Below, in pieces: positions 15,512-27,893 of a stretch of 64,000 nt of DNA. The translations under genes were made by a program, and so were the position numbers. Each line of letters begins with the position of its first letter. The stretch's first letter is position 1. The notes under the pieces are model-generated. The model searched no databases and was not told where the DNA came from. It saw nothing but the letters and a program-made list of their open reading frames with translations. Where the stretch lies: contig JALUYI010000023.1 in NCBI GenBank assembly GCA_027013095.1, forward strand, positions 1 to 64,000. Direction: 5' to 3'. Source of the stretch: Paracoccaceae bacterium. Its GTDB lineage: Bacteria > Pseudomonadota > Alphaproteobacteria > Rhodobacterales > Rhodobacteraceae.

Positions 15512-15937
15512 TCAGAACGGAAACGGTTTGCCCCACATGTAGGACATCGGATGCGAGACCGCATAGGTCGCCTGCCCGACATCATAGGTCATTTTGGACA
15601 TGCTGGCGTTCATTTGCAGCATGACCCCCGACAGGTTCCGCACCGAGCCCGACATGTCGGCGATTTTCCCGTTCATCAGGGCAATATTCTGATCCATATG
15701 GCTGGTGTTGCCGCGCATTTTGGCCATGTCGAGGCTCATGGCGTGCATATCGGCGGCCATGCTGGTCTGGGTCACGACCATGGATTTAAAGCTCTGGTTC
15801 AGTTCAACCATAACGTCGGTCATCTTGAACACCTGCTGGGCCATCCCGTACATGACCCAGGTGAACAGGGCCATGACAATGACGATTCCAAGAGTGGTCA
15901 GGACAATGAATCCGCCACTGTTCACGCGTCTATACAT
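15512..15937 (-). CDS. Methionine-rich, membrane-anchored coiled-coil protein, function unknown
   Basis: I do not recognise this protein. It has 141 residues: a short basic N terminus, one transmembrane helix (about 9-32) and a long periplasmic or cytoplasmic helical region in which Met recurs at about every third or fourth position (for example MAADMHAMSLDMAKM), about 20 Met in all. The C terminus ends in aromatic YMWGKPFPF. The Met spacing suggests a coiled coil packed on methionines or a copper-binding surface; both are speculation. AAGGA precedes ATG 15937. It is last in the 27893-15512 operon, 13 bp after the M41-like gene, and converges on cbpM. Confidence 0.75.
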   Translation of the reverse strand: MYRRVNSGGFIVLTTLGIVIVMALFTWVMYGMAQQVFKMTDVMVELNQSFKSMVVTQTSMAADMHAMSLDMAKMRGNTSHMDQNIALMNGKIADMSGSVRNLSGVMLQMNASMSKMTYDVGQATYAVSHPMSYMWGKPFPF

Positions 15938-15950
15938 GCGTATTTTTCCT

Positions 15951-16547
15951 TCATTTTGCGGCCTCCCCGGGCCGAGATTTCCTGCTGCCAAGACCCATCA
16001 TACGCCGGAAACGGCCAACCTTGACGCGCGCCGGCAGATGCTGATCGAGAAACCCCTCGATGGTCGGTCCGTCAATGATTTCTTCGCCGTTCCGAACGCG
16101 GGCGTGCAAGAACTCGGCTACTGTGACGATCGCCGCGCAGTAGGGAGCGTTGTCAAAGATGTTGCGGCTGCGCTCTTCGAGGTCAAACCATATGTCCTCG
16201 GGATCGCGGCTGTCACCAAGACCGGCCAGAAGGCGCGTCAGCTCATCGATGCGGGCGATATCGCCGGAACAGCAGGTGTTTGAGCCGCAAGCGATCTCCT
16301 CGGCGATCTGCCCGCCGAACAGTTCCATGATACGAATCTCCAGCATCTCGCCGAACGACCCCCAGTCGCGGCCGCGAAAGGCCTTATCGCTGAGCAGCAC
16401 CGGCGGGCGCGGGAGCATCCTCAAGGCGTGGATTTTCAGTCCCAGCGCGCGGGCAACCAGCGCATGACCGGATTCATAAACCGCCAATCGAAAGGCCAGC
16501 TCTGCACATCTGCCCTGCGGTAGGTCGCAATTTTGTCGGCTATACAA
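15951..16547 (-). CDS. Stand-alone M41 (FtsH-type) protease-like domain with degenerate zinc site
   Basis: A 198-residue protein whose first half follows the FtsH protease domain: LAVYESGHALVARALGL aligns with the HEAGHA helix, and FGGQIAEEIACGSNTCCSGDI with the later segment that carries the third metal ligand (Asp). The AAA+ module is absent. In the HExxH position the first His is Tyr24 (codon TAT at 16476-16478), so Glu25 and His28 remain but one zinc ligand is gone. It is therefore probably an inactive scaffold or adaptor, unless another residue substitutes. No ATG is available; TTG 16547 with AAAGGG six bases upstream is the only sensible start, since a stop lies six codons before it. 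It is the tenth gene of the operon. Confidence 0.7.
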   Translation of the reverse strand: MYSRQNCDLPQGRCAELAFRLAVYESGHALVARALGLKIHALRMLPRPPVLLSDKAFRGRDWGSFGEMLEIRIMELFGGQIAEEIACGSNTCCSGDIARIDELTRLLAGLGDSRDPEDIWFDLEERSRNIFDNAPYCAAIVTVAEFLHARVRNGEEIIDGPTIEGFLDQHLPARVKVGRFRRMMGLGSRKSRPGEAAK

Positions 16548-16618: not shown

Positions 16619-18229
16619 TTAGGCGACAGCGTTGCCTTTTTGCGTGTCACTGCCACCGCCCCCCCCGCTCGCATCCGCGGACGTGTGCCTCGTGGGGGCC
16701 TCGGTCGGCGTGGCATCGCCCGTCGGTGCCGCCGGCGACCTTGATTTGTCCGCGACGATGGGCGCGGCGTCCTCCCGGGGCGGCTGGACCGGATCGACCG
16801 GCGCGGTCTTGCCCGAGGGGTCCGCGTAACGGTCGTTGAGTTCCTGAATATGGTTGGCCACGGTTTCGCGAATTATACGCAGCTGACGGCGGTCGCGCTT
16901 GCCCCAGCCAACCGGAAACGGGCGAAAGATCGAGCGAAACAGCCCGGTGCTTTTCTCGAATGCTTGCCTGAGGTTCAGTTCGACATGCCCGAACGCCTCG
17001 GGCAGGCCGGCAGCGATGCGACGGGCGACAAACCCGCGCAGCCAGATATGGAAACTGCCCGCCAGAATGATCACCGCCAGAACACCCACGGTGACATCCA
17101 GCAGATGCGCACCAATCCAGGCAAAGCTGAAGACATCCGCCGATGGCATCCAGCCAAAGCGCAGCATTGCCCCAAGCACCAGCAGCAGAACACCCCCCAG
17201 CGCCACCCCGTCGCCCAACAGCACATTGCGCCGCCAGCGGTCCTTGGCCTCGGTCAGCCGCGGGATGATGTCGTGCTCCATCTCATTGGCCACCGTCTCC
17301 AGAACGCCGACAATACGATAGTTGCGCTGCAAGTCCACCTCGTCCATGCGTTCGACAATCTTTTTCAGATCGTGGTCGCGCTTGGCGCGAAAGCGCTCGC
17401 GCAGCCCCTCGTCCTCGATTGGGTTGGCCGCTTCTTCGTTGTAAATGGTAAAGAATTGTCCGGCCCCCAGCCCCGCCTGCGCCACGGCCCTTTGCCATGC
17501 GCCGGTGATGTCCTCGGGGTTGTCCTCTTTGGCGGCGGTGTCGATCTGGTTCAGAACATAAAAGAATTTCGACGCATCGGTGCGCGAAACGGTATTGGCA
17601 ACCAGATGCTCCAGCGTATCCTGCATGGCGCCCGGTTCTGGGTGGCGGGCGTCAAAAAACACCAGAACCATGTCCGAGAGGTCAATGATGTGATCAGTGA
17701 TCCGCAAGGTCGAGCGGCGCTGGTCATCGGCGTCGAAACCGGGACTGTCGATCAGGATCTTGCCTTTGATGCGCTCTTTGGCAGTGGTGCGCAACTGTAG
17801 GTAGCTTTCGATATGCTTGCCCTCGCCCTGCGCCACCTTTTCGATCTCGCCGCTGATCCGAAAGAACGGAAACCTCGGGTCTGCATCTAGGGCCGAGCCG
17901 GGCAACGTGCGGTTGCCTCCGACCCCCGCCGAGCGGTGGCAGATCACGGTAAACTTGTCGTCCACCGCCTGATTGCCAGTGTCCTGAATCTTTTCGCCGA
18001 TATAGTCGTTAATAAAGGTCGATTTGCCGGAACTGAAGGTGCCCAGAACCGAGATCAGCGGCCACCACGAGATGCGAGAGGCCAGCGAGCTTTCCCGATC
18101 CAGCAGCCCGACCCGATAGAGCATCTTGTCGAATTTGTAGAACGTCGGCAGCACATCCAGCAGCGCCGGGTTCTCGGCCTGCATGTGGCTTTCCAGACGT
18201 TCCAACCGCTTTTTCAGAAAATCGCTCAT
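16619..18229 (-). CDS. Dynamin-like GTPase, membrane-associated
   Basis: A 536-residue bacterial dynamin-family protein. G1 is GTFSSGKST (63-71), G3 is DSPGFD (about 165-170) and G4 is NQID (about 215). After the G domain come helical segments, then two hydrophobic stretches (about 335-405), a basic region and a disordered Pro/Ala/Asp-rich tail. Known: bacterial dynamins bind and remodel or fuse membranes with GTP hydrolysis. Here it is encoded 24 bp after the TPR-like gene and two genes after a ParA-type ATPase, in an operon with an RND pump. Two membrane segments suggest permanent inner-membrane anchoring. Role in membrane organisation is inferred. Confidence 0.85.
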   Translation of the reverse strand: MSDFLKKRLERLESHMQAENPALLDVLPTFYKFDKMLYRVGLLDRESSLASRISWWPLISVLGTFSSGKSTFINDYIGEKIQDTGNQAVDDKFTVICHRSAGVGGNRTLPGSALDADPRFPFFRISGEIEKVAQGEGKHIESYLQLRTTAKERIKGKILIDSPGFDADDQRRSTLRITDHIIDLSDMVLVFFDARHPEPGAMQDTLEHLVANTVSRTDASKFFYVLNQIDTAAKEDNPEDITGAWQRAVAQAGLGAGQFFTIYNEEAANPIEDEGLRERFRAKRDHDLKKIVERMDEVDLQRNYRIVGVLETVANEMEHDIIPRLTEAKDRWRRNVLLGDGVALGGVLLLVLGAMLRFGWMPSADVFSFAWIGAHLLDVTVGVLAVIILAGSFHIWLRGFVARRIAAGLPEAFGHVELNLRQAFEKSTGLFRSIFRPFPVGWGKRDRRQLRIIRETVANHIQELNDRYADPSGKTAPVDPVQPPREDAAPIVADKSRSPAAPTGDATPTEAPTRHTSADASGGGGGSDTQKGNAVA

Positions 18230-18253: not shown

Positions 18254-19108
18254 TCAGTTCGTCTTGCTCGCCGTTTTGCGCAGCTCGTCTGCCATCTGCG
18301 GCGCAATCGCCTGAAGGACCGACAGCATGGCCTGCGCGCGGGCAGTTTGACCAGTCGCCAGAAGGTCGCGCGCGACGCGCTTGTAATAAGGCGCGGCCAG
18401 TTTGACCCGCCCCGAGGAATAATAGATGTTGCCCAGTTCCCCGGCAAAATCCACCCGGTTCGGGAAATCCGCGATCAGAGCCTTGTAAAGCTTTTCGGCG
18501 GTTTTGCTGTCGCCCTTCCAATAGGCGGCGCGGGCCGCATTCTGGCGTCTGGTCGCGTCGTCTTTCGGCGATGCCGATTTTTCCTGTGGCTGCGCTTGGG
18601 GCTGCGGTTCTGCCAGCGCGGTTGTTGTCGGCACGGGCGTGGGAGTCGGCGGGGTCAGGGGCACGGCCTCAGCGGCAGGTTTTTCGTTCGCGGCCACCGG
18701 AGCGGGGGTAGCCTTGGGCACCGTCACGCCGAGTTTTGGTTTGGGCGCGGGGGCAGTCACTGCAGCGCTGGCGGTGACGTCGTTGGCCCGCGGCGCGGGG
18801 GTGGCCTGCGGTGCGGGCGTCGCTGCAGGGGCGCTCTGGGCGGGGGGTGCCACCGTCGCCTGTGCCGTAGCGTCGGCTTTGGCCACATCTGTCGCCGGTG
18901 CCGCATCATTTTCGGGCGTTGCGACCTGATCCTCCGCAACCGGCGCGGCAGGGGGGATCGGAGGCAGAGACGGGTCCGAATAGGCGACACTGGCGCCGTC
19001 GCCGGCAATGCCCAGCATCTGCTTCAGCCCGTCGCGGTTGAAGACGATGAACACCGCCACACCAACCAGCACATAAATGGTTATCAATCGAACAAATGGC
19101 ATGATCAT
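18254..19108 (-). CDS. Membrane-anchored protein with Pro/Ala-rich linker and TPR-like C terminus
   Basis: A 284-residue protein: transmembrane helix at about 5-23 (RLITIYVLVGVAVFIVF), a long Ala/Pro/Val linker (about 45-190) that looks disordered, and a C-terminal helical repeat region (about 195-275) including ARAAYWKGDSKTAEKLYKAL, which fits a tetratricopeptide pair. TPR units usually bind partner proteins. I infer a tether or scaffold for the ParA-type and dynamin-like proteins encoded on either side (gaps 43 and 24 bp). ATG 19102 is an alternative start. No enzyme motif was seen. Confidence 0.7.
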   Translation of the reverse strand: MIMPFVRLITIYVLVGVAVFIVFNRDGLKQMLGIAGDGASVAYSDPSLPPIPPAAPVAEDQVATPENDAAPATDVAKADATAQATVAPPAQSAPAATPAPQATPAPRANDVTASAAVTAPAPKPKLGVTVPKATPAPVAANEKPAAEAVPLTPPTPTPVPTTTALAEPQPQAQPQEKSASPKDDATRRQNAARAAYWKGDSKTAEKLYKALIADFPNRVDFAGELGNIYYSSGRVKLAAPYYKRVARDLLATGQTARAQAMLSVLQAIAPQMADELRKTASKTN

Positions 19109-19151: not shown

Positions 19152-19778
19152 TCATTTTGCACCGTAAAGAGCGTTGGCAAGGGCGTTCAGTTCTGCCGCC
19201 GCCTTGCCACTCGGTTCCATTTCAAAGGCTGCCAGCCCCTCAGAGAACGAGCGTCGAAAGGCGAGGCGTTGCACCAGTTTTTCCGGCACAGCCTGGATCA
19301 ACTGAAGCATCTTCAGCGCCTCCAGCGTCTCGGCGTTCTCGCGTGAGCGCGGGTGCGCATCGGCCCGGTTGATAAAGGCCTTGATCATCGGCATCCGCGA
19401 TTTTCCACCGCCGCGTTCGGCGGTAATGATGTCCAGAAACTGCTGCGTGGCCCAGATGTCAGCCTGTGAGGGGGTGACCGGAATCACGACCTGATGGCAG
19501 GCGCGGATGGCCGCCCGCAGCGCCTCCATATCCGAGATCCCGACGTCGATCAGCCAGTCGCCGCGGGCCTTGCCCTTGGCCGGCAGCTCATGCACGACCT
19601 TTAGCCCCGGCTCAATTGCGTCCTCGTCGCGGATCATGGCCACGTCGCTGACGGTGCGCTGCGGGTCGAGGTCACAAACCGTCACCTTGCGCCCCTCGGC
19701 CATACGCCAGACCGCCATATTGAAGACAACCGTACTTTTTCCGGTGCCGCCTTTGAAATTTGCAAATAGTGTCAACAT
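19152..19778 (-). CDS. ParA/MinD-type P-loop ATPase
   Basis: A 208-residue cytosolic ATPase with the deviant Walker A KGGTGKST (9-16), a second lysine-containing signature typical of the ParA/MinD/SIMIBI class, and Walker A' CDLDPQRTVSD (about 34-44). The short length and division protein/ParA-like middle (IPVTPSQADIWATQQFLDII) match orphan ParA-like proteins that position cargo such as chemosensory arrays, carboxysomes or polyhydroxybutyrate granules. No parB or plasmid replication gene is nearby, so chromosome or plasmid partition is unlikely. It sits 16 bp after the LolA-like gene and before the TPR-like and dynamin genes. Cargo positioning is inferred. Confidence 0.85.
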   Translation of the reverse strand: MLTLFANFKGGTGKSTVVFNMAVWRMAEGRKVTVCDLDPQRTVSDVAMIRDEDAIEPGLKVVHELPAKGKARGDWLIDVGISDMEALRAAIRACHQVVIPVTPSQADIWATQQFLDIITAERGGGKSRMPMIKAFINRADAHPRSRENAETLEALKMLQLIQAVPEKLVQRLAFRRSFSEGLAAFEMEPSGKAAAELNALANALYGAK

Positions 19779-19794: not shown

Positions 19795-20601
19795 CTAGTT
19801 CCCGGCCGGTTTGGGTGCCGCAGGAGCGGTCAGGCTGCGCGCCTCACTCTGCTGCCAACCAGCGGGCGGGGCAAACATCGCGGGGTCCAGCGGAGCAACG
19901 ACCAGATGGTCCAGCCGCCGGGTTTCACCACCGGGGATCGACTGGCGCACGACGACCCGCAGGTCAGGGTCGAACCACCACTCTCCGGTGACAACGGGCT
20001 GGCCCTTGCGGATGATATCGACATCCCAACGCTCGGTCGGGCGGCCGGCGACCTTTTCCATCGCACGAAAGCGCATCAGCATCTTGCTGCCGTCGGGGAA
20101 AACCTCGCTGAGCGCATGGCGGCGCGCCGGATCCCACAGGATATCCACCGGCCCGCCGGTTTGCCCGGGACTGGAGATCAGCCAGCGCTCGGCCCGAACG
20201 CCGCTGCTGATCGCGTCGCCCACATGTTCGCAACGGGTATTCGGAGTCGGGGGACATGGCGATTTATAGCCAATCACGCTTTCTTCCGGCACCGCCTTGC
20301 CCCGGATCAGGGAATAGGTCTTACTGGCCGGATCAAGAATATACATCAGCCCCTTGGTCGGCAGGATAATCTGCACCACCCGTTTGCCGTTCTGCGTGTA
20401 TTCAAGGCGCATCTTGGCGCCGGATTTGACGATTGTCCCGACGCGCTCGGGCTGTCCAGGGCGCTGGCTGACGGCGGTGGCCGTGTACATCCGCGCGGCA
20501 CTTGCGGCTGTGGCGCTCGGCGCGGGCAAGACCGGGGTCAGCCCGCCGGTGCCAAGCGCCAGAAAAAGAACCACCCCTGCGGCTTTGATCGAGATCGGCA
20601 T
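19795..20601 (-). CDS. Exported LolA-like/DUF4412-like protein
   Basis: A 268-residue protein with an N-terminal signal sequence (core VVLFLALGTGG, Ala-rich cleavage zone near residue 30). The rest has the alternating beta pattern of LolA-fold proteins: GAKMRLEYTQNGKRVVQI, then GLMYILDPASKTYSLI, a Cys pair (CPPTPNTRC) and a C-terminal WWFDPDLRVVVRQ segment. Known: such folds bind lipid or lipoprotein acyl chains in the periplasm; here only the fold is suggested. ATG 20601 follows GGGGGA. It lies between the low-complexity protein genes and parA-like. A specific family name could not be assigned. Confidence 0.65.
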   Translation of the reverse strand: MPISIKAAGVVLFLALGTGGLTPVLPAPSATAASAARMYTATAVSQRPGQPERVGTIVKSGAKMRLEYTQNGKRVVQIILPTKGLMYILDPASKTYSLIRGKAVPEESVIGYKSPCPPTPNTRCEHVGDAISSGVRAERWLISSPGQTGGPVDILWDPARRHALSEVFPDGSKMLMRFRAMEKVAGRPTERWDVDIIRKGQPVVTGEWWFDPDLRVVVRQSIPGGETRRLDHLVVAPLDPAMFAPPAGWQQSEARSLTAPAAPKPAGN

Positions 20602-20692
20602 ATTTCCCCCTGTCGGTAAAATCCGTGCTGTTCGTGTTTCCGTCCGCCCCAGACAGGGCGAACGGGAGCTTTCTTGGGAGGGACACATTCTG

Positions 20693-20735: not shown

Positions 20736-21287
20736 TCAGTTCGAGGGCGCAGCGGGCTTTTGCAGGTCGGCCTTTGCGCCAGCCTTGGGAGCCGCCGCAG
20801 GAGCCGCAGGATTATAGGCCCCGGCCGGTGCGTTCGGTGCTGCACCCGGCTTTTGCTGCTGCCACGGAGCGGGGTAGCCATAGCCCGGATAGCCGTAGCC
20901 GTTGTTGCCGTAACCATAGCCATAGCCATTGCCGCGGCCACGACCTTCGCCTTGCGCCTTGCCCGTGGCATTGCCCGAGAAGCCAAAGTTGAAGCTGCCG
21001 TTCCCGTTGCCATTGCTGTTGCCGTTAAACGGACCCCAGTTGTTGCCCCAGTTGTTGCCCCAGCCATTGTTCCACGGAGTCCAGCCATTGAACGGACCCC
21101 AGTTGTTGCCGCCCCAGCCGTTATTCCATGGCGCCCAGCCGTTGCCGTAATAGGGACCATAAGCCGGGCCACCCCAATAGCCGGGAGCCGGCGCATAACC
21201 CGGGCCCCAGGTCTGGGCGTCAGCAGTTGCGACGAAAGCGCCGCCAAGTCCGGCAGCCAGAGCTGCGGTGATCATCAATTTACGCAT
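20736..21287 (-). CDS. Secreted Gly/Asn/Trp/Tyr-rich low-complexity protein (sulfur-globule-protein-like)
   Basis: A 183-residue protein with a clear signal peptide (MRKLMITAALAAGLGGAFV, cleavage after ADA). The mature part is repetitive: WAPWNNGWGGNNWGPFNG and near copies, an NGNGNG run, then GYGYGYGNNGYGYPGYGYP and an Ala/Pro tail. This composition resembles the sulfur-globule envelope proteins of purple sulfur bacteria, which is how such proteins are often annotated, but low-complexity similarity alone does not prove it. It also resembles structural or glycine-rich envelope proteins. A strong SD (AAGGAGA) precedes ATG 21287. It is the third of three consecutive aromatic/Gly-rich exported proteins between an RND pump and a ParA-type module. 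Confidence 0.75.
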   Translation of the reverse strand: MRKLMITAALAAGLGGAFVATADAQTWGPGYAPAPGYWGGPAYGPYYGNGWAPWNNGWGGNNWGPFNGWTPWNNGWGNNWGNNWGPFNGNSNGNGNGSFNFGFSGNATGKAQGEGRGRGNGYGYGYGNNGYGYPGYGYPAPWQQQKPGAAPNAPAGAYNPAAPAAAPKAGAKADLQKPAAPSN

Positions 21288-21398: not shown

Positions 21399-22046
21399 TC
21401 ACCAAAAGCCGAACGGACTGAACCCAAAAAATGGGAAACCTTGTGAGGGCAAGCCACCGCCAAACGGCCCAAGCCCGGTGGTGCTGCCATAGGGGGTGAT
21501 CCCCGGCGCACCACCGTAGGGCAGGCCTCCATAGGGCAGGCCGCTGTAGGGAACGCCATAGGGGGTGGCGCCCCCATAAGGCGGGACGGCGCGGTAGGGG
21601 TTGGCCGCCCCGTAGGGACTGACCCGGCGCGGGAGATACCCCCGACCGGGGATATTACGCGCCTGCACACTGGCCTCTGGGGCCAGCAGCGCCGGGTTGA
21701 TCGCAACCCCCGGGGTCAGCGGCGAAAGAGGCGGCAATGCCTGCGGCTGTTGCAACGGAACGGCAGGGGTCGTCGGGGCCCTCCCCGACAGACGCGCATC
21801 AAGATCATCGGGAGCATAGACACTGCCCTGATCGGTGCCGTTGCCCCAGACTCCGCCGCCACTGGCGGGCGTGTCGATATAGGTCGGCGCTGTGCTGTCC
21901 TTGGCCTGCGCGGGCGCCGGAGTCGGGCTCCAGTTGTTGCCAGCGGTGGCCGCCTGACCGGAGATCGCCAAAGCCAGCGACCCGGCCAGCGCAAGGCCAC
22001 CGGCCAGCAGCAGAGGTTTGCGTGAAAAGATGAAAATCCGGCTCAT
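21399..22046 (-). CDS. Secreted Pro/Tyr/Gly-repeat protein
   Basis: A 215-residue exported protein, function unknown. Signal peptide: SRKPLLLAGGLALAGSLAL, cleavage near GQA. The second half is built of PYGG-type repeats (PYGAANPYRAVPPYGGATPY, then further copies), ending in a Phe/Gly-rich FPFFGFSPFGFW. The start at 22046 overlaps the upstream gene by 4 bp (ATGA), which indicates translational coupling and supports both frames in a region where several frames are open. Regular Tyr/Phe-Gly spacing is typical of self-associating structural proteins. Confidence 0.7.
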   Translation of the reverse strand: MSRIFIFSRKPLLLAGGLALAGSLALAISGQAATAGNNWSPTPAPAQAKDSTAPTYIDTPASGGGVWGNGTDQGSVYAPDDLDARLSGRAPTTPAVPLQQPQALPPLSPLTPGVAINPALLAPEASVQARNIPGRGYLPRRVSPYGAANPYRAVPPYGGATPYGVPYSGLPYGGLPYGGAPGITPYGSTTGLGPFGGGLPSQGFPFFGFSPFGFW

Positions 22047-22690
22047 TTCTGGACCCCGTAGTCTGTGCGATAGCCGGGCGGCGGCGCATAGCCCGGCGCC
22101 ACCCCATAGCCGAATGGCATAAAGTTCGGCCGCCCATAGCCCGGCCAAAAGGGAAAGCCCGGCCCATATCCCGGGGCCGGCGCGAATCCCGTGTTGGCGG
22201 CCCCCCCCCGCCGCACAGTCCAAGGCCGTCCAGTCCAAGGTCGTGCAGCCCAAACCGACCGACGTGGATCAGAAGCAGCCCAGCCGGTCGAGCCCGCGCG
22301 CTCCTGCGCCTGTCCGCGCCCCTGAACCGACGCATGGAGCGACGCTGAAAAGCCAAAGCCACCACTGAGCTGACCGGCCCCCTGCCCGCGCGCCCCGGCC
22401 CGCCCGGCGGCGGTGCTTGTGCCGACCCTCGGAGGGGTGCCCGAGGGGGCAAACCCTGGCCGGGGCTGCATCCAGTAGGGCAAGCTCTGGCGAACGCTCC
22501 AATCCGACGGGATCGAGCGCTGTGCCACAGGAGGTGCAAGCGGCGCCACGCTCTCGAACGGACCCGGAGGCGGCAGCGGCTTGTCCTGCGCTTTGGCCCC
22601 GGGGTTCAGGGTCAGGCCCAGAATCAGGCCCAAGGTCAGGGTCAAACCTTGGGTCAGGTTGGGAACACTCAATGGTATCGCTCGTATCAT
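22043..22690 (-). CDS. Secreted Gly/Pro/aromatic-rich protein
   Basis: A 215-residue exported protein, function unknown. It has a hydrophobic N-terminal signal region (LTQGLTLTLGLILGLTLNPG, cleavage near AKA), a Pro-rich early section, a Gly/Ala/Arg middle and a C-terminal GYGPGFPFWPGYGRPNFMPF type repeat. Composition groups it with the next two genes. It starts 12 bp after the RND permease stop and overlaps the following gene by 4 bp, so the trio belongs to the RND transcription unit. The middle part is the least certain because other frames are also open there. Confidence 0.65.
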   Translation of the reverse strand: MIRAIPLSVPNLTQGLTLTLGLILGLTLNPGAKAQDKPLPPPGPFESVAPLAPPVAQRSIPSDWSVRQSLPYWMQPRPGFAPSGTPPRVGTSTAAGRAGARGQGAGQLSGGFGFSASLHASVQGRGQAQERAGSTGWAASDPRRSVWAARPWTGRPWTVRRGGAANTGFAPAPGYGPGFPFWPGYGRPNFMPFGYGVAPGYAPPPGYRTDYGVQK

Positions 22691-22702: not shown

Positions 22703-25700
22703 TCAATCCTGTTTCGGTGTGCCCGAGCCGGGCTTTAGCCGAATCCCGCGGCGTCCGGTCTGGCGCGGTTTACGCGGTGCTGTGGCGACTTTCCGGGGCG
22801 GTGATGGTTTCGTCCCGGCAGGTTTCGCGGCCTTGGGTTTCGCGGCCTTGGGTTTTGTGGTCTTGGGTTTTGTGACCGCCGGTTTTGGCGCCGCCGGTTT
22901 CGCAGCCTTGGATTTCGCGGTTGTTGATTCCGTAGGGGATTTCACCACTTTGGATTTCGCCGACGCACGCTTTTTGGGTGCCGCTTTGGGTGCTTTTTCC
23001 ACCGGCGTTTCCGACTGTTTCGGCGGCGCGGGAACGGGCGCGGCCACGACTTCGGGGGTGGCCACCTTGGCGGGTGTCTCCACCGCTGCGGGGGCGCGCA
23101 TCTCTGCGGTCGATTTTTCGGGCACCGTGACAGCTTGGGGGTGTGGTGTCGCCGGTGTGGCCGGGCGCGGCATTTCAGGCTGTGCCGCCGCGGCTCTGCG
23201 GGCCGAGATTGCCCGCAGCATGGCCTTGACGGCGCTGACCAACAGAAAGGCAATCGCCGCCCCCAGCAGAGCGAGAAGATCGACAAGCGCCCTGAGCGCC
23301 ATCATCAGACGCGCCAGCAACCCGGTGTCGCAGCGCGCGGCCTCAGCCCGTTTCAGCGCCTCGCTCTTAGGTTCTGACGGGCGGCCCAGCGTATCCTTTG
23401 AATCGGGTCCGGTGTCGCCTTGTCCACTCTCTGTCAACGCCTTGCGAAAGCTGACGCAGCCCAGCGGGATGACCACGAGCGTCAGAATCGTGGCCACCAG
23501 ACCACCCATCATCAGCGAGATCGCCATGCCCTGAAAGATCGGGTCCGACAAGATCACGGAAGAGCCGAGGATCAGCGCCAGAGCGGTAATGATGATCGGT
23601 CGGGTCCGAGTCGCACAGGCGGTGATGACCGCAGTGCGCGGATCGACCCCGCGCAACACCGCCTGGCGCGAGAAATCCACCAGCAGGATCGAATTGCGCA
23701 CGATAATGCCCGCCAGCGCGATAAAGCCGATCATCGAGGTTGCGGTGAACGGCGCCCCGAACAGCCAGTGGCCGGGAACGATGCCGATCAGGGTCAAGGG
23801 GATCGGCACCATGACGATTGCCGGGGTGATGAAATTGCCGAACTCCCAGACCACGAGGATATAGATCATGACCAGTGCGACACCAAAGGCAATGCCCATA
23901 TCGCGAAAGGTTTCGTAGGTGACGGTCCACTCGCCGGTCCACTCCAGCGCCGACTGGAGGCTGGTTTTCGGTGGTCCGGTAAAGGTCGTTGCCACCCGCA
24001 CACCATCCGGCGCGACATAGTCCTTCAGCAGCTTCTGAAGTTCAAGAATCCCATAGATGGGGGCGCCCAACTTACCGGTGACCTCGCCGGTCACGTATTC
24101 CACCGCGCGCAAGTCCTTGTGAAAGACCGGGTCGTCCACCATGAAGGGCTCAAAGCGGCCAAGCTCGGTCAAGGGGATCATATCGCCGCTGCTCGAGGGG
24201 ATCGGCAGTTGCCCCAGCCGCCCCAGATCGCCACGCAGCGCAATCGGCATTTGCAGATAGATGAACCGCGGCTCCAGTGAGCGCTGCGTCTTGGCGTCGC
24301 CCAGCTTGTATCCCCCCATCGCCATTTCGAGTTGGCGGTTGATGTTGGCAACCGACACCCCACGACGCGAGGCCTTTTCCCGGTCGATGACAAAGCGCCA
24401 GCTTTTGAACGGGGCCTGCAGGTAGCTGCCTTCATCGACAACAGTCTTGGCCTTGCCGAACAGATCACGCATGTCGCGCGCCACCTGACGGCGGGTCTTG
24501 GCGTCTGGGCCGTAGATCTCGGCGACCATAGTCTGCAGGACGGGCGGTCCGGGTGGCATTTCGACGACCTCGATGCGGGCACCCATCTTCTTTGCGATCG
24601 GCGTCAGCATCTTGCGCGCCAGATCGGCCAGCTGCGACGACGAGCGCGTACGTTCGCCTTTGGGGATCAGCTGCACCTGAATGTCGCCATACCACGGCTT
24701 GTTGCGCAGATACGAGTGGCGGACCAGACCGTTGAAATTGAACGGGCTTGCAGTGCCCGAATAGGACTGCACGGCCATGACCTCGGGCAAGCTCATCACA
24801 CGTTCCGAGAGGCGCGCGGCCACGTTCGCGGTGACCGGCAGCGCCGTTCCCGCGGGCATGTTGATGGTCACGTTGAACTCGGGCTTGTTGTCCTTGGGCA
24901 ACATCTTGACCGCAACGCTTTCGGTGGCGAACATGTAGAGGCTGCCGAAAAAAACCAACAGCAGGCCCGCGGCGAACAGCCATCCCTTCAGGCGACTGTC
25001 CAGAAGCGGCATCAGGATATTCCGATAGAATGCATCCAGCCGCTGCGCCTGACGGTGCTCGCGCAGACGCGCCTTTTCCAGATGCGCCATTGGCGGGCGA
25101 ATACGCTGGGCCAGCCACGGCGTGAAAATGAAGGCGGCAAACAGCGAGAACAGCATGGCCACCGAGCCCAGCGCCGGAATCGGCTCCATATAGGGGCCCA
25201 TCATCCCCGACACAAAGCCCATCGGCAGCAGCGCCGCAATCACGGTAAAGGTCGCCAGCACCGTGGGGTTGCCCACCTCGCGCACCGCGTCGATGCTGCA
25301 ATCAGCGGTACATTCCCCCTGCAACAGCCATCGCCGGTAGATGTTTTCAACCACGACGATCGCATCATCGACCAGAATTCCGATGGAAAAGATCAATGCA
25401 AACAAACTGACCCGGTCGATGGTATAGCCCAGCAGAAAGGCGGCAAAGACGGTGACAAGGATCACGATCGGGATCACCACCAGAACCACCGTCGCCGCCC
25501 GCAATCCCAGCGCCAGCCAGATCAGCACGGTCACCGCGCCGGTCACGACAAACAGCTTGAAGATCAGCTCGTTGACCTTCTCGTTGGCGGTAACACCGTA
25601 GTTGCGAGTCACCTCGACATGGACATTATCCGGGATCAGACTGCCTTGCAGGCGCTTGACATAGGCCAGAATGTCATTGGCCACCGTCACCCCGTTCGAG

Positions 25701-26707
25701 CCGGCCTTCTTGGCCACCGCAATGGTGACCGCAGGGGCCCCGATTGGCGCCAACTGCGGGCCCGAGGTTGCATCGGACAGGCCCACATGGGCGCGTGTCC
25801 CATAGGCCGGGCCGGTGTAATACGAGACGACATTTTGGGCTTCCGCGGTGCCGTCGGTGACCAGCGCCACGTCGCGCACATAGGTCGGGCGGCCCTGACT
25901 GACGCCAACCATCAGGTTCTCGATGTCCTGCGCATTGCGTAGAAACGCGCCGGTATAGAGGGTAAACGTGGTCTGCCCTGCCTCGACCGAGCCCACGCCG
26001 CGTTCAGAGTTGGCGGTACGGATAGTCTGCGCCAGTTGATCGAGGCTGATGCCAAAGCCGGCCAGACGCTCGGGGAAAACCTCGACCTTGATCGCCTCGG
26101 GGCGACCGCCGACGATAAAGCTCTGGGCGGTGTTGGGGATCTGCTTTAGCCGCTGCACGATGTCCAGCCCAAGCGAGCGCATGGCGGCCTCGTCAACCTG
26201 CTGCGACCACAGCGTCAGGGTCACAAGCGGCACATCGTTCACCCCCTTGGGGCGAATCAGCGGGCGCGAAACACCGGGTGGGATCTTGTCGAGGTTGGAC
26301 TGGATCTTGTCGTTCAGCTTGACCAGTGACGGGCCCATCTTTTCGCCGACCTTGAACTGCACGGTGACGATGGCGCCCTCGCGCTCGGAGCGGGAATAGA
26401 CGTGTTTGACGCCGGGGATCTCGGACATCAGCTTTTCCAGCGGATCGGTGGCCAGCGAGGCCACCTGCTCGGCAGAAGCGCCCGGATAGGAAAAGAAGAT
26501 ATCGACCATCGGCACCGAGATCTGCGGATCTTCCTGACGCGGGGTCAGCACCAGCCCCATCAGGCCCAGCGCAAGGCAGGCGATCAGCAACAGCGGCGAC
26601 AGCGGCGAATGGATGAAGTTCTTGGTCAGCGTCCCGGCCAGGCCCAGCCCGCGTTGGGGGGCGCTGGCGCCGGTCTCGGCATCTTCATTTGTCTGATTAT
26701 CGGTCAT
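22703..26707 (-). CDS. RND-family efflux permease with extra C-terminal helix and lysine-rich tail
   Basis: A 1334-residue inner-membrane RND transporter of the HAE/AcrB-like class. The first 1080 or so residues are standard: N-terminal helix, two large periplasmic loops, and the proton-relay helix GILVDDAIVVVENIYRRW. It differs from relatives in a tail of about 250 residues. The tail holds one more hydrophobic segment (LLALLGAAIAFLLVSAVKAM), then a Pro/Ala/Glu stretch, then about 100 residues of KPKAA-type repeats like histone H1 or AlgP, ending in basic RRGIRLKPGSGTPKQD. ATG 26707 has GGGAGG six to seven bases upstream. The membrane-fusion partner is 28 bp upstream. Cargo unknown. Confidence 0.9.
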   Translation of the reverse strand: MTDNQTNEDAETGASAPQRGLGLAGTLTKNFIHSPLSPLLLIACLALGLMGLVLTPRQEDPQISVPMVDIFFSYPGASAEQVASLATDPLEKLMSEIPGVKHVYSRSEREGAIVTVQFKVGEKMGPSLVKLNDKIQSNLDKIPPGVSRPLIRPKGVNDVPLVTLTLWSQQVDEAAMRSLGLDIVQRLKQIPNTAQSFIVGGRPEAIKVEVFPERLAGFGISLDQLAQTIRTANSERGVGSVEAGQTTFTLYTGAFLRNAQDIENLMVGVSQGRPTYVRDVALVTDGTAEAQNVVSYYTGPAYGTRAHVGLSDATSGPQLAPIGAPAVTIAVAKKAGSNGVTVANDILAYVKRLQGSLIPDNVHVEVTRNYGVTANEKVNELIFKLFVVTGAVTVLIWLALGLRAATVVLVVIPIVILVTVFAAFLLGYTIDRVSLFALIFSIGILVDDAIVVVENIYRRWLLQGECTADCSIDAVREVGNPTVLATFTVIAALLPMGFVSGMMGPYMEPIPALGSVAMLFSLFAAFIFTPWLAQRIRPPMAHLEKARLREHRQAQRLDAFYRNILMPLLDSRLKGWLFAAGLLLVFFGSLYMFATESVAVKMLPKDNKPEFNVTINMPAGTALPVTANVAARLSERVMSLPEVMAVQSYSGTASPFNFNGLVRHSYLRNKPWYGDIQVQLIPKGERTRSSSQLADLARKMLTPIAKKMGARIEVVEMPPGPPVLQTMVAEIYGPDAKTRRQVARDMRDLFGKAKTVVDEGSYLQAPFKSWRFVIDREKASRRGVSVANINRQLEMAMGGYKLGDAKTQRSLEPRFIYLQMPIALRGDLGRLGQLPIPSSSGDMIPLTELGRFEPFMVDDPVFHKDLRAVEYVTGEVTGKLGAPIYGILELQKLLKDYVAPDGVRVATTFTGPPKTSLQSALEWTGEWTVTYETFRDMGIAFGVALVMIYILVVWEFGNFITPAIVMVPIPLTLIGIVPGHWLFGAPFTATSMIGFIALAGIIVRNSILLVDFSRQAVLRGVDPRTAVITACATRTRPIIITALALILGSSVILSDPIFQGMAISLMMGGLVATILTLVVIPLGCVSFRKALTESGQGDTGPDSKDTLGRPSEPKSEALKRAEAARCDTGLLARLMMALRALVDLLALLGAAIAFLLVSAVKAMLRAISARRAAAAQPEMPRPATPATPHPQAVTVPEKSTAEMRAPAAVETPAKVATPEVVAAPVPAPPKQSETPVEKAPKAAPKKRASAKSKVVKSPTESTTAKSKAAKPAAPKPAVTKPKTTKPKAAKPKAAKPAGTKPSPPRKVATAPRKPRQTGRRGIRLKPGSGTPKQD
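22821..22925 (-). repeat. Seven 15-bp tandem repeats encoding KAAKP-type pentapeptides
   Basis: Seven consecutive 15-bp units lie in the RND tail. The plus-strand unit is GGTTTCGCGGCCTTG and variants, starting at 22821, 22836, 22851, 22866, 22881, 22896 and 22911. On the coding strand they encode lysine/alanine/proline pentapeptides. The first two are identical, so copy number could vary between strains. Confidence 0.85.
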
Positions 26708-26735
26708 AAGGATCCTCCCAGTTCCCAAATCGGTT

Positions 26736-27893
26736 TCACTTGCCGCCAGAAACCAGATTTGCGGGTGGATCCAAGATGACTTCTTCGCCGCCCCTCAGGC
26801 CGGAAACGACCGACAGCCGCCCCCCGGGCAAGGGATAGCCGACGCGGATCAGGCGCAGCGACGGTTTGCCGTTTTCAACGACAAAGACCGAGGGCAGGCT
26901 GCCGCGCCAGACCACCGCTGCGGCCGGAACCGCCGGTTGGCTGCGGGTCGGCACGGATTGGTCGGGAATCGTCACCTCGACATACATGCCAGGCCCGCCG
27001 GGAGTGCCCTTGGGCAGGTCGAACTTGACCTTGACGGTGTGGCGCCCGGGGTCAGCGACCGGATAGATCTGCGCCACCTTGGCCGCGACCGAGCCGCCGC
27101 CGCCGGCATCCAGTCGCGCCGGAACTGTCATTCCTTTTTTCAACCCGGCGGCCAGACGCACGGGCACATCGGCAACGATGCGCAGATAATCGGTATAGGC
27201 AAATTTCAACAATGGCGTGCCCGGTTGCACGGTGTCGCCGACCTCGACCATCTTGTCCACCACGACGCCATCAAAGGGGGCAACGGATTTTGCATCGCGC
27301 AGCTGCGCGTCCAGCGCGTCCAGATTGGCGCGCGCCTGCATCAACCCGCTCTGGGCCTGATTGACCCCCGAGCCGCGGGCGTAGAGATCGGCCTGCCGCT
27401 CGAGCCCCGAGTTCGAGCGCCCCATCGTGTCGGCGAACCCGCGGGTAAAGAACTGGTCGAACATGCTGGGCACGCCCATGCCGGGAAAGCCGGAAATCGA
27501 GTTGATCCGCGGGGAATAAAGCTCACGCGAGTATTGCATCTGGGCGTTGCGCACACCGGATTCAGCGCGATAGATCTGCGCCGCCGCGGCCCGGCGTTTG
27601 GCCTGAATGGCGGCATCGTCGATCGTCAGCAGAACCTCGTTCTTGGCGGCGCGATGGCCCTCCTTGCCAGCAATGAACTTGATCCGGCCGGGAATTTGGG
27701 CATTCAGCGTCACCTCTTTATAGGGTATGACCGTCCCGCCAACCGTTGCGCTGCCACCGACCTCGTTGGTCAGCACCCTCGCCGTCTTGAACGATCGTCC
27801 TGTTTGCTGGGCAATGGCCCCGGAATTCAGATACAACCCGAACGCGATCAGCGTTACAAGTACGGCAATGACATAGCGCCCCGTTTTCAGCAT
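26736..27893 (-). CDS. RND efflux membrane-fusion protein (periplasmic adaptor)
   Basis: A 385-residue HlyD/AcrA-type adaptor anchored by an N-terminal membrane segment (about 6-27). It shows the split lipoyl/barrel-sandwich halves (early GTVIPYKEVTLNAQIPGRI and later APFDGVVVDKMVEVGDTVQP), a helical hairpin containing an unusual Gly/Phe-rich insert (FPGMGVPSMFDQFFTRGF), a beta-barrel region and a C-terminal proximal domain. It links the RND permease to an outer-membrane channel, which is not encoded here. It is first in the operon; GGGAGAG precedes ATG 27893. The hairpin insert is atypical. Confidence 0.88.
   Translation of the reverse strand: MLKTGRYVIAVLVTLIAFGLYLNSGAIAQQTGRSFKTARVLTNEVGGSATVGGTVIPYKEVTLNAQIPGRIKFIAGKEGHRAAKNEVLLTIDDAAIQAKRRAAAAQIYRAESGVRNAQMQYSRELYSPRINSISGFPGMGVPSMFDQFFTRGFADTMGRSNSGLERQADLYARGSGVNQAQSGLMQARANLDALDAQLRDAKSVAPFDGVVVDKMVEVGDTVQPGTPLLKFAYTDYLRIVADVPVRLAAGLKKGMTVPARLDAGGGGSVAAKVAQIYPVADPGRHTVKVKFDLPKGTPGGPGMYVEVTIPDQSVPTRSQPAVPAAAVVWRGSLPSVFVVENGKPSLRLIRVGYPLPGGRLSVVSGLRGGEEVILDPPANLVSGGK

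Follow-up and report, generated by a model that had tools for sequence, protein, structure and literature searches.

A conserved C-terminal peptide on a tailed RND permease as a candidate ParA-binding site

The locus and its genes

The window analysed here, a stretch of 64,000 nucleotides from a Paracoccaceae bacterium (contig JALUYI010000023.1), contains an RND permease gene with a long C-terminal extension, set within a cluster of genes that runs from a periplasmic adaptor to a membrane/coiled-coil-like protein. The genes are listed in that order, with the features of the pump gene placed beneath it.

26736..27893, minus strand: periplasmic adaptor, RND_mfp/HlyD family (family match); precedes the pump in 71 of 79 loci
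22703..26728, minus strand: RND permease with C-terminal extension, 1341 residues (open ORF, Pfam ACR_tran)
23195..23320, minus strand: extra predicted helix of 42 residues, residues 1137-1178 (AF2 model; amphipathic, muH z 2.6 over the 42-residue segment)
22754..23194, minus strand: Lys/Pro/Ala-rich linker, disordered by prediction (pLDDT 32-39 across most of its length)
22821..22920, minus strand: 15-bp tandem repeat within the linker, 6.7 copies (Tandem Repeats Finder)
22733..22753, minus strand: C-terminal RRGIRLK motif, residues 1326-1332, putatively ParA-binding (conservation in relatives)
22043..22690, minus strand: small secreted-looking protein of no family (ORF, Pfam)
21399..22049, minus strand: secreted-looking Pro/Gly-rich protein of no family, start inferred (ORF, Pfam)
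20736..21287, minus strand: sulphur globule protein (Pfam PF17228, E 8.7e-11)
19795..20688, minus strand: protein of LolA-superfamily fold (AF2 pLDDT 84.5; distant Foldseek matches to LolA, RseB and ependymin-related proteins)
19152..19778, minus strand: orphan ParA/ParF-like ATPase with the deviant Walker A KGGTGKST (family match); proposed partner of the tail
18254..19108, minus strand: TPR protein with an N-terminal hydrophobic stretch (Pfam)
16619..18229, minus strand: dynamin-like GTPase (Dynamin_N)
15951-16547: M41-like protein (weak Peptidase_M41 match, E 0.0027)
15512..15991, minus strand: membrane/coiled-coil-like protein (likeness to the FMPW proteins of relatives judged by eye)

Translation of the permease probably begins at the ATG at 26707. 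The core superposes on AcrD, OqxB and AcrB in structural alignment (329 matches with E ≤ 0.001), and the proton-relay pair D313 D314, the TM4 Asp-Asp expected of the RND family, is invariant in alignment A1; the permease falls short of every curated NCBIfam RND cut-off. The three other RND matches in the same genome lie in frames of 1048, 1109 and 1156 residues, all shorter than 1341. The ACR_tran match (475 bits) has residue 1089 as its last matched residue, and about 246 residues remain past the RND fold, in agreement with an earlier sequence-only reading of this DNA, which had counted about 250 there. The added hydrophobic helix described in that reading is likewise borne out, both by the best 19-mer of the segment (KD 2.47) and by the modelled helix. 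In sequence order, a short polar stretch leads into this helix, followed by the low-pLDDT linker and the end GRRGIRLK-PGSGTPKQD. The repeat within the linker had been put at seven units over 22821-22925; the array exists, with figures close to those computed (6.7 copies, ending at 22920), its 77% matches giving it the top score among the six arrays that Tandem Repeats Finder reports in the window, and the residues encoded there read ...TKPKTTKPKAAKPKAAKPAG....

The adaptor is not upstream of the pump in eight of the 79 loci, six of which start with the pump or just ahead of it (L013, L015, L022, L042, L062, L075), the others being L043 and the paralogue L074. As would be expected of an orphan ParA partnered with the pump, 34 of the 41 loci that offer 7 kb or more of room have the ATPase gene downstream of the pump, on its strand, and the deviant Walker A of the ATPase is intact across the aligned cluster ParAs; the two genes are non-adjacent in several lineages (L031, L034, L056, L059, L077). 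In one genome (G022:C26:74211-83318) the cluster ParA, the dynamin gene and dsrA all lie within about 9 kb.

The usual zinc-binding motif of Peptidase_M41 is HExxH. In the M41-like neighbour, which is conserved, this position reads YESGH, such that the protein is possibly inactive. A second C-terminal motif of the cluster, the conserved RPMSFxNxFMPW, closes the FMPW proteins of relatives (L033:12492-13178; L073:17077-17568). A phage-family search yielded nothing further.

A conserved end on a variable linker

Scanning named genomes yielded 79 pump loci at 51-77% identity, in Rhodobacteraceae, Rhodospirillaceae, Magnetococcales, Thiotrichaceae, Sedimenticola, Thiodiazotropha and Rhabdochromatium, among others. 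The motif, defined as RRG[IV][RQ][LVI][KRNS] at 0-30 residues ahead of the stop, is present in 58 of the 69 relatives whose pump ORF ends inside the locus, which with the window makes 59 sequences (RRGIRLK in 35, RRGIQLK in 11, other variants in 13). The sequence-only reading had allowed that relatives might lack the tail, or that the tail might go untranslated. The fusion of basic tail to pump is, however, retained by these relatives; moreover, since the end motif is kept at such identities and arises in 0 of 20,700 shuffled tail ends, the tail is translated. The idea that RRGIRLK is a sorting tag common to many proteins was rejected, as the back-translated pattern has a single match in the 2.9 Mb genome of the window.

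The stretch ahead of the motif is far from constant. Complete motif-bearing tails are 121 to 378 residues long, and within the 80 residues preceding the motif in the 59 sequences the lysine share runs from 3 to 30% (median 21%), the net charge has a median of +15 but is zero or below in six, and KPKAA-type words occur in 18. The composition thus varies whereas the end motif persists, and the lysine-rich tail was rejected as the conserved element. In other words, the sequence-only reading, which had taken the histone-H1-like, lysine-rich part as the working element, overlooked the conserved RRGIRLK; it is this short end motif, and not the lysine-rich stretch, that is the conserved part of the tail. 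AlgP and PhaF carry histone-H1-like KPKAA tails, to which the linker in the window is alike in composition; it is unlike them in that its relatives do not conserve that composition, and the tail family as a whole lacks the conserved lysine-rich make-up of a histone-H1-like element. Any tie of the tail to nucleic acid is more likely to be indirect, by way of the ParA ATPase that the cluster encodes.

The motif and the ParA gene

If the tail were a ParA partner, motif and ATPase would be expected to occur together. Counting rows as both/motif only/ParA only/neither, the first set of 64 rows gives 50/5/1/8 (Fisher p 2.4e-6), the same set without rows that lack dynamin as well as ParA gives 50/4/1/6 (p 2.5e-5), and a second set of 21 further genomes, under the same motif definition, gives 10/0/3/8 (p 0.001), all of these p values ignoring the kinship of the rows. 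The co-occurrence is therefore seen in both sets, whilst a tree-aware test is not significant: there are about three concordant and practically no discordant independent pairs (sign test p ~0.25), too few for significance.

The first table leaves out, of the 79 loci, ten that are open-ended, three with X residues (L008, L011, L041), one that is N-terminally short (L022) and one with a tail below 100 residues (L074); L071 is in the tree and not in this table. L008, L011 and L022 have both the motif and a ParA in the locus. The second set was drawn as relatives of one ParA-less genome (27 with the pump, less five already used and one open-ended), and in its three multi-pump genomes the long-tailed pump was scored. 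A looser motif, RG[IV][RQ]x[KRNS], gives 13/1/0/7 for this set, its lone ParA-less match (L140) being spurious; it was picked after the data had been seen and is not relied on.

The exceptions in the first set are five loci with the motif and no detected ParA (L014, L040, L051, L068, L076) and one with ParA and no motif (L042). In the second set, the three ParA-bearing exceptions end in RRGIRTK, TRGIRLK and KRGIRLK, each one substitution off the motif, and the eight ParA-less genomes end in RRGIELK, RQGIQLK (twice), RRDIQLK, RRSVELK, TRGIRLD or nothing similar (twice). Since absence of ParA from a draft genome may be missing data, the dynamin gene was searched as a control. It is found in 64 of 72 pump genomes and is still there in six of the eight without motif and ParA, which speaks against the motif tracking the entire cluster instead of ParA. 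The L035 locus, on a 156 kb contig, has the same order of pump, LolA-fold, globule-like and FMPW proteins as L033, with ParA gone and the motif reading RRAVRVR; the RPMSFxNxFMPW protein is retained there. That the motif tends to decay where the ParA gene is missing suggests that ParA grips the pump by its tail, perhaps so that stored sulfur is placed in the cell or divided at its inheritance.

Thiomargarita and Thioploca have very large cells. ParA is lost and the motif eroded in four of their MAGs (L050, L060, L064, L070), and again in relatives of one such MAG (L126-L129, L133, L135, L137), as if partitioning were without importance in this group.

The side of the membrane

Among 76 tails scored for an extra hydrophobic segment, 65 contain it, at a mean length of 35 residues (that of L041, among the 65, is probably false). 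Its hydrophobic moment exceeds that of shuffles (z > 1) in 58 of the 65; by the same measure, z for the window's 12 core TM helices runs from -1.4 to 1.2. The flanking charge is about +2.3 after the segment and -0.1 before it. The best 19-mer nevertheless matches a true TM helix in hydrophobicity, and one crossing would place the tail in the periplasm.

RND permeases have a cytoplasmic C terminus, as is established for AcrB. Nine motif-bearing relatives lack a spanning segment (L012, L023, L025, L031, L033, L034, L036, L040 and L078, with L023 borderline at 1.33), and since RND permeases end in the cytoplasm, the motif of these nine should lie there; by homology to them it is probably cytoplasmic in all tails. 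Together with the amphipathic character of the helix in most relatives, this favours a cytoplasmic tail. The HHH_5 domain that takes the place of the tail end in L043 (L043:5900-6856), a locus with neither motif nor ParA, also counts for the cytoplasmic side.

Pumps or paralogues with tails of just 6-53 residues (L074, L115, L139, L141) indicate that the RND core is able to exist without a tail. A Solemya symbiont (L074) was considered as a case of pump and tail encoded separately, and rejected: the genome assigned to it, G016, holds a second, tail-bearing pump adjoining ParA, and L074 is therefore a paralogue.

Association with sulfur oxidisers

In line with occurrence in reverse-dsr sulfur oxidisers, dsrA scores above its curated cut-off in 61 of the 72 pump genomes and in only five of the 289 genomes of an even class sample, the genome of the window being among both; these counts score presence of the gene, whichever way its pathway runs. 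A cluster-type ParA orthologue occurs in that sample in the genome of the window only, the next best match scoring 90.6 bits; in the pump genomes the orthologues score at least 150 bits and the other ParAs reported at most 67. The likeness of the cluster to Pfam SGP sulfur globule proteins consists of this dsrA association and the one PF17228 match in the window, and it is offset by matches in relatives that are weak or absent: of six globule-like proteins, those of L098 (1.4e-5) and L030 (0.003) are both under the curated cut-off and four have no match. From the SGP match, the dsr association and the neighbourhood, the cluster is possibly tied to sulfur globules, and the modelled LolA fold hints that the substance moved by the pump may be hydrophobic.

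Known systems for comparison

ParB is established to bind ParA through a short aliphatic/basic motif that lies in an unstructured region (PMC12462528), and a short motif in an unstructured tail is reported to act similarly in ParG (PMC7308502). PMC12204374 places a short basic peptide, necessary and sufficient for McdA binding, within the N-terminal 20 residues of McdB. The cluster resembles the carboxysome-positioning McdA-McdB system in pairing an orphan ParA-type ATPase with a partner that bears such a peptide, and differs in that the proposed peptide is C-terminal and on an integral-membrane pump whose presumed cargo is extracytoplasmic. Its likeness to ParF-ParG (TP228) and ParA-ParB lies in the ATPase, for which ParF (4dzz) is the closest PDB sequence match, and in the aliphatic and positive character of a motif on a flexible tail, RRGI[RQ]LK being situated where pLDDT is 32-39; unlike those systems, no DNA-binding centromere protein was seen with the cluster ParA, and the cargo is presumably not DNA. 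Position counts against the comparison, since known ParA-activating peptides are N-terminal and all 59 sequences carry the motif 0-30 residues short of the C terminus. As for the pump, it shares core fold, family and TM4 Asp-Asp pair with AcrB/MexK-type permeases, from which its additional residues and its failure to reach any curated cut-off set it apart.

Proposed mechanism and alternatives

The reading preferred here, to which we give a probability of about 0.6, is that the tail is a cytoplasmic ParA adaptor on an RND pump, through whose end peptide ParA, bound to the nucleoid, would position the pump and possibly sulfur globules. Past TM12 the chain would remain in the cytoplasm, with its long amphipathic helix resting on the membrane, and a disordered spacer of variable length would then display RRGI[RQ]LK at the chain end. 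This basic and aliphatic peptide would bind and stimulate the ParF-like ParA of the cluster, in the way that ParB, ParG and McdB act on theirs through flexible tails. The pump, along with its periplasmic adaptor, the LolA-fold protein and the Gly/Asn-rich globule-type proteins, would thereby be distributed along the nucleoid or kept over it, such that the export site, and perhaps an extracytoplasmic sulfur globule too, may be positioned via the pump. A broader proposal, that of a class of transmembrane ParA adaptors in which a cytoplasmic ParA-activating peptide on a secondary transporter, together with a dedicated dynamin, would let nucleoid-bound ParA position and partition a periplasmic sulfur globule, is tentative, and we hold it at somewhat below even odds.

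The lysine-rich linker might itself, in the manner of histone H1, hold the pump to the nucleoid with no need of ParA, by directly binding DNA or else RNA, polyphosphate or acidic proteins. The typical lysine content and charge of the linker, its KPKAA repeat in the window and the HHH_5 domain standing in its place in one relative would all suit this; yet the end motif persists where the charge is zero or negative and where KPKAA-type words are missing, and the correlation of motif with ParA is left unexplained, making it unlikely. Improbable too is a tail on the other side of the membrane, in which the segment would be TM13 and the basic, Pro-rich tail would cross the periplasm, with RRGIRLK docking to a protein of the envelope, the cell wall or a globule. 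The linker of TonB, which spans the periplasm, is a model for such an arrangement, and both the hydrophobicity of the 19-mer and the secreted globule-type proteins of the cluster are consistent with it. Against it stand the nine motif-bearing relatives without a spanning segment, the length, internal charges and strong helical periodicity of the segment where present, and the tracking of motif decay with the gene of a cytoplasmic ATPase.

The motif could, alternatively, be recognised by another cluster protein lost along with ParA, for example the TPR protein, which would make the correlation with ParA indirect. The TPR protein diverges fast and the genome-wide searches covered ParA and dynamin only, leaving some room for this; the dynamin gene is, however, kept in most genomes lacking motif and ParA, and the FMPW protein is kept in L035, and we regard this explanation as very unlikely.

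Implications

An RND pump with a ParA-docking tail has no description in the literature searched, which lay largely outside subscription journals, and the same literature, in its available text, does not describe the placement and inheritance of sulfur globules. The word sulfur is absent from the available main text of a review of organelle positioning (PMC13052382), and this cluster is undescribed in the available text of that review and of PMC12204374, PMC6509183, PMC11267869, PMC11172852, PMC5728499, PMC12462528 and PMC7308502. If the ParA-adaptor reading is true, the ParA principle would reach membrane transporters and cargo beyond the cytoplasm, and a peptide of about 16 residues would provide an experimental handle. 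Adaptor, pump, LolA-fold protein, globule proteins, ParA and dynamin would then make up a candidate sulfur-globule module, one that would serve chemosynthetic symbionts, giant sulfur bacteria and magnetotactic bacteria.
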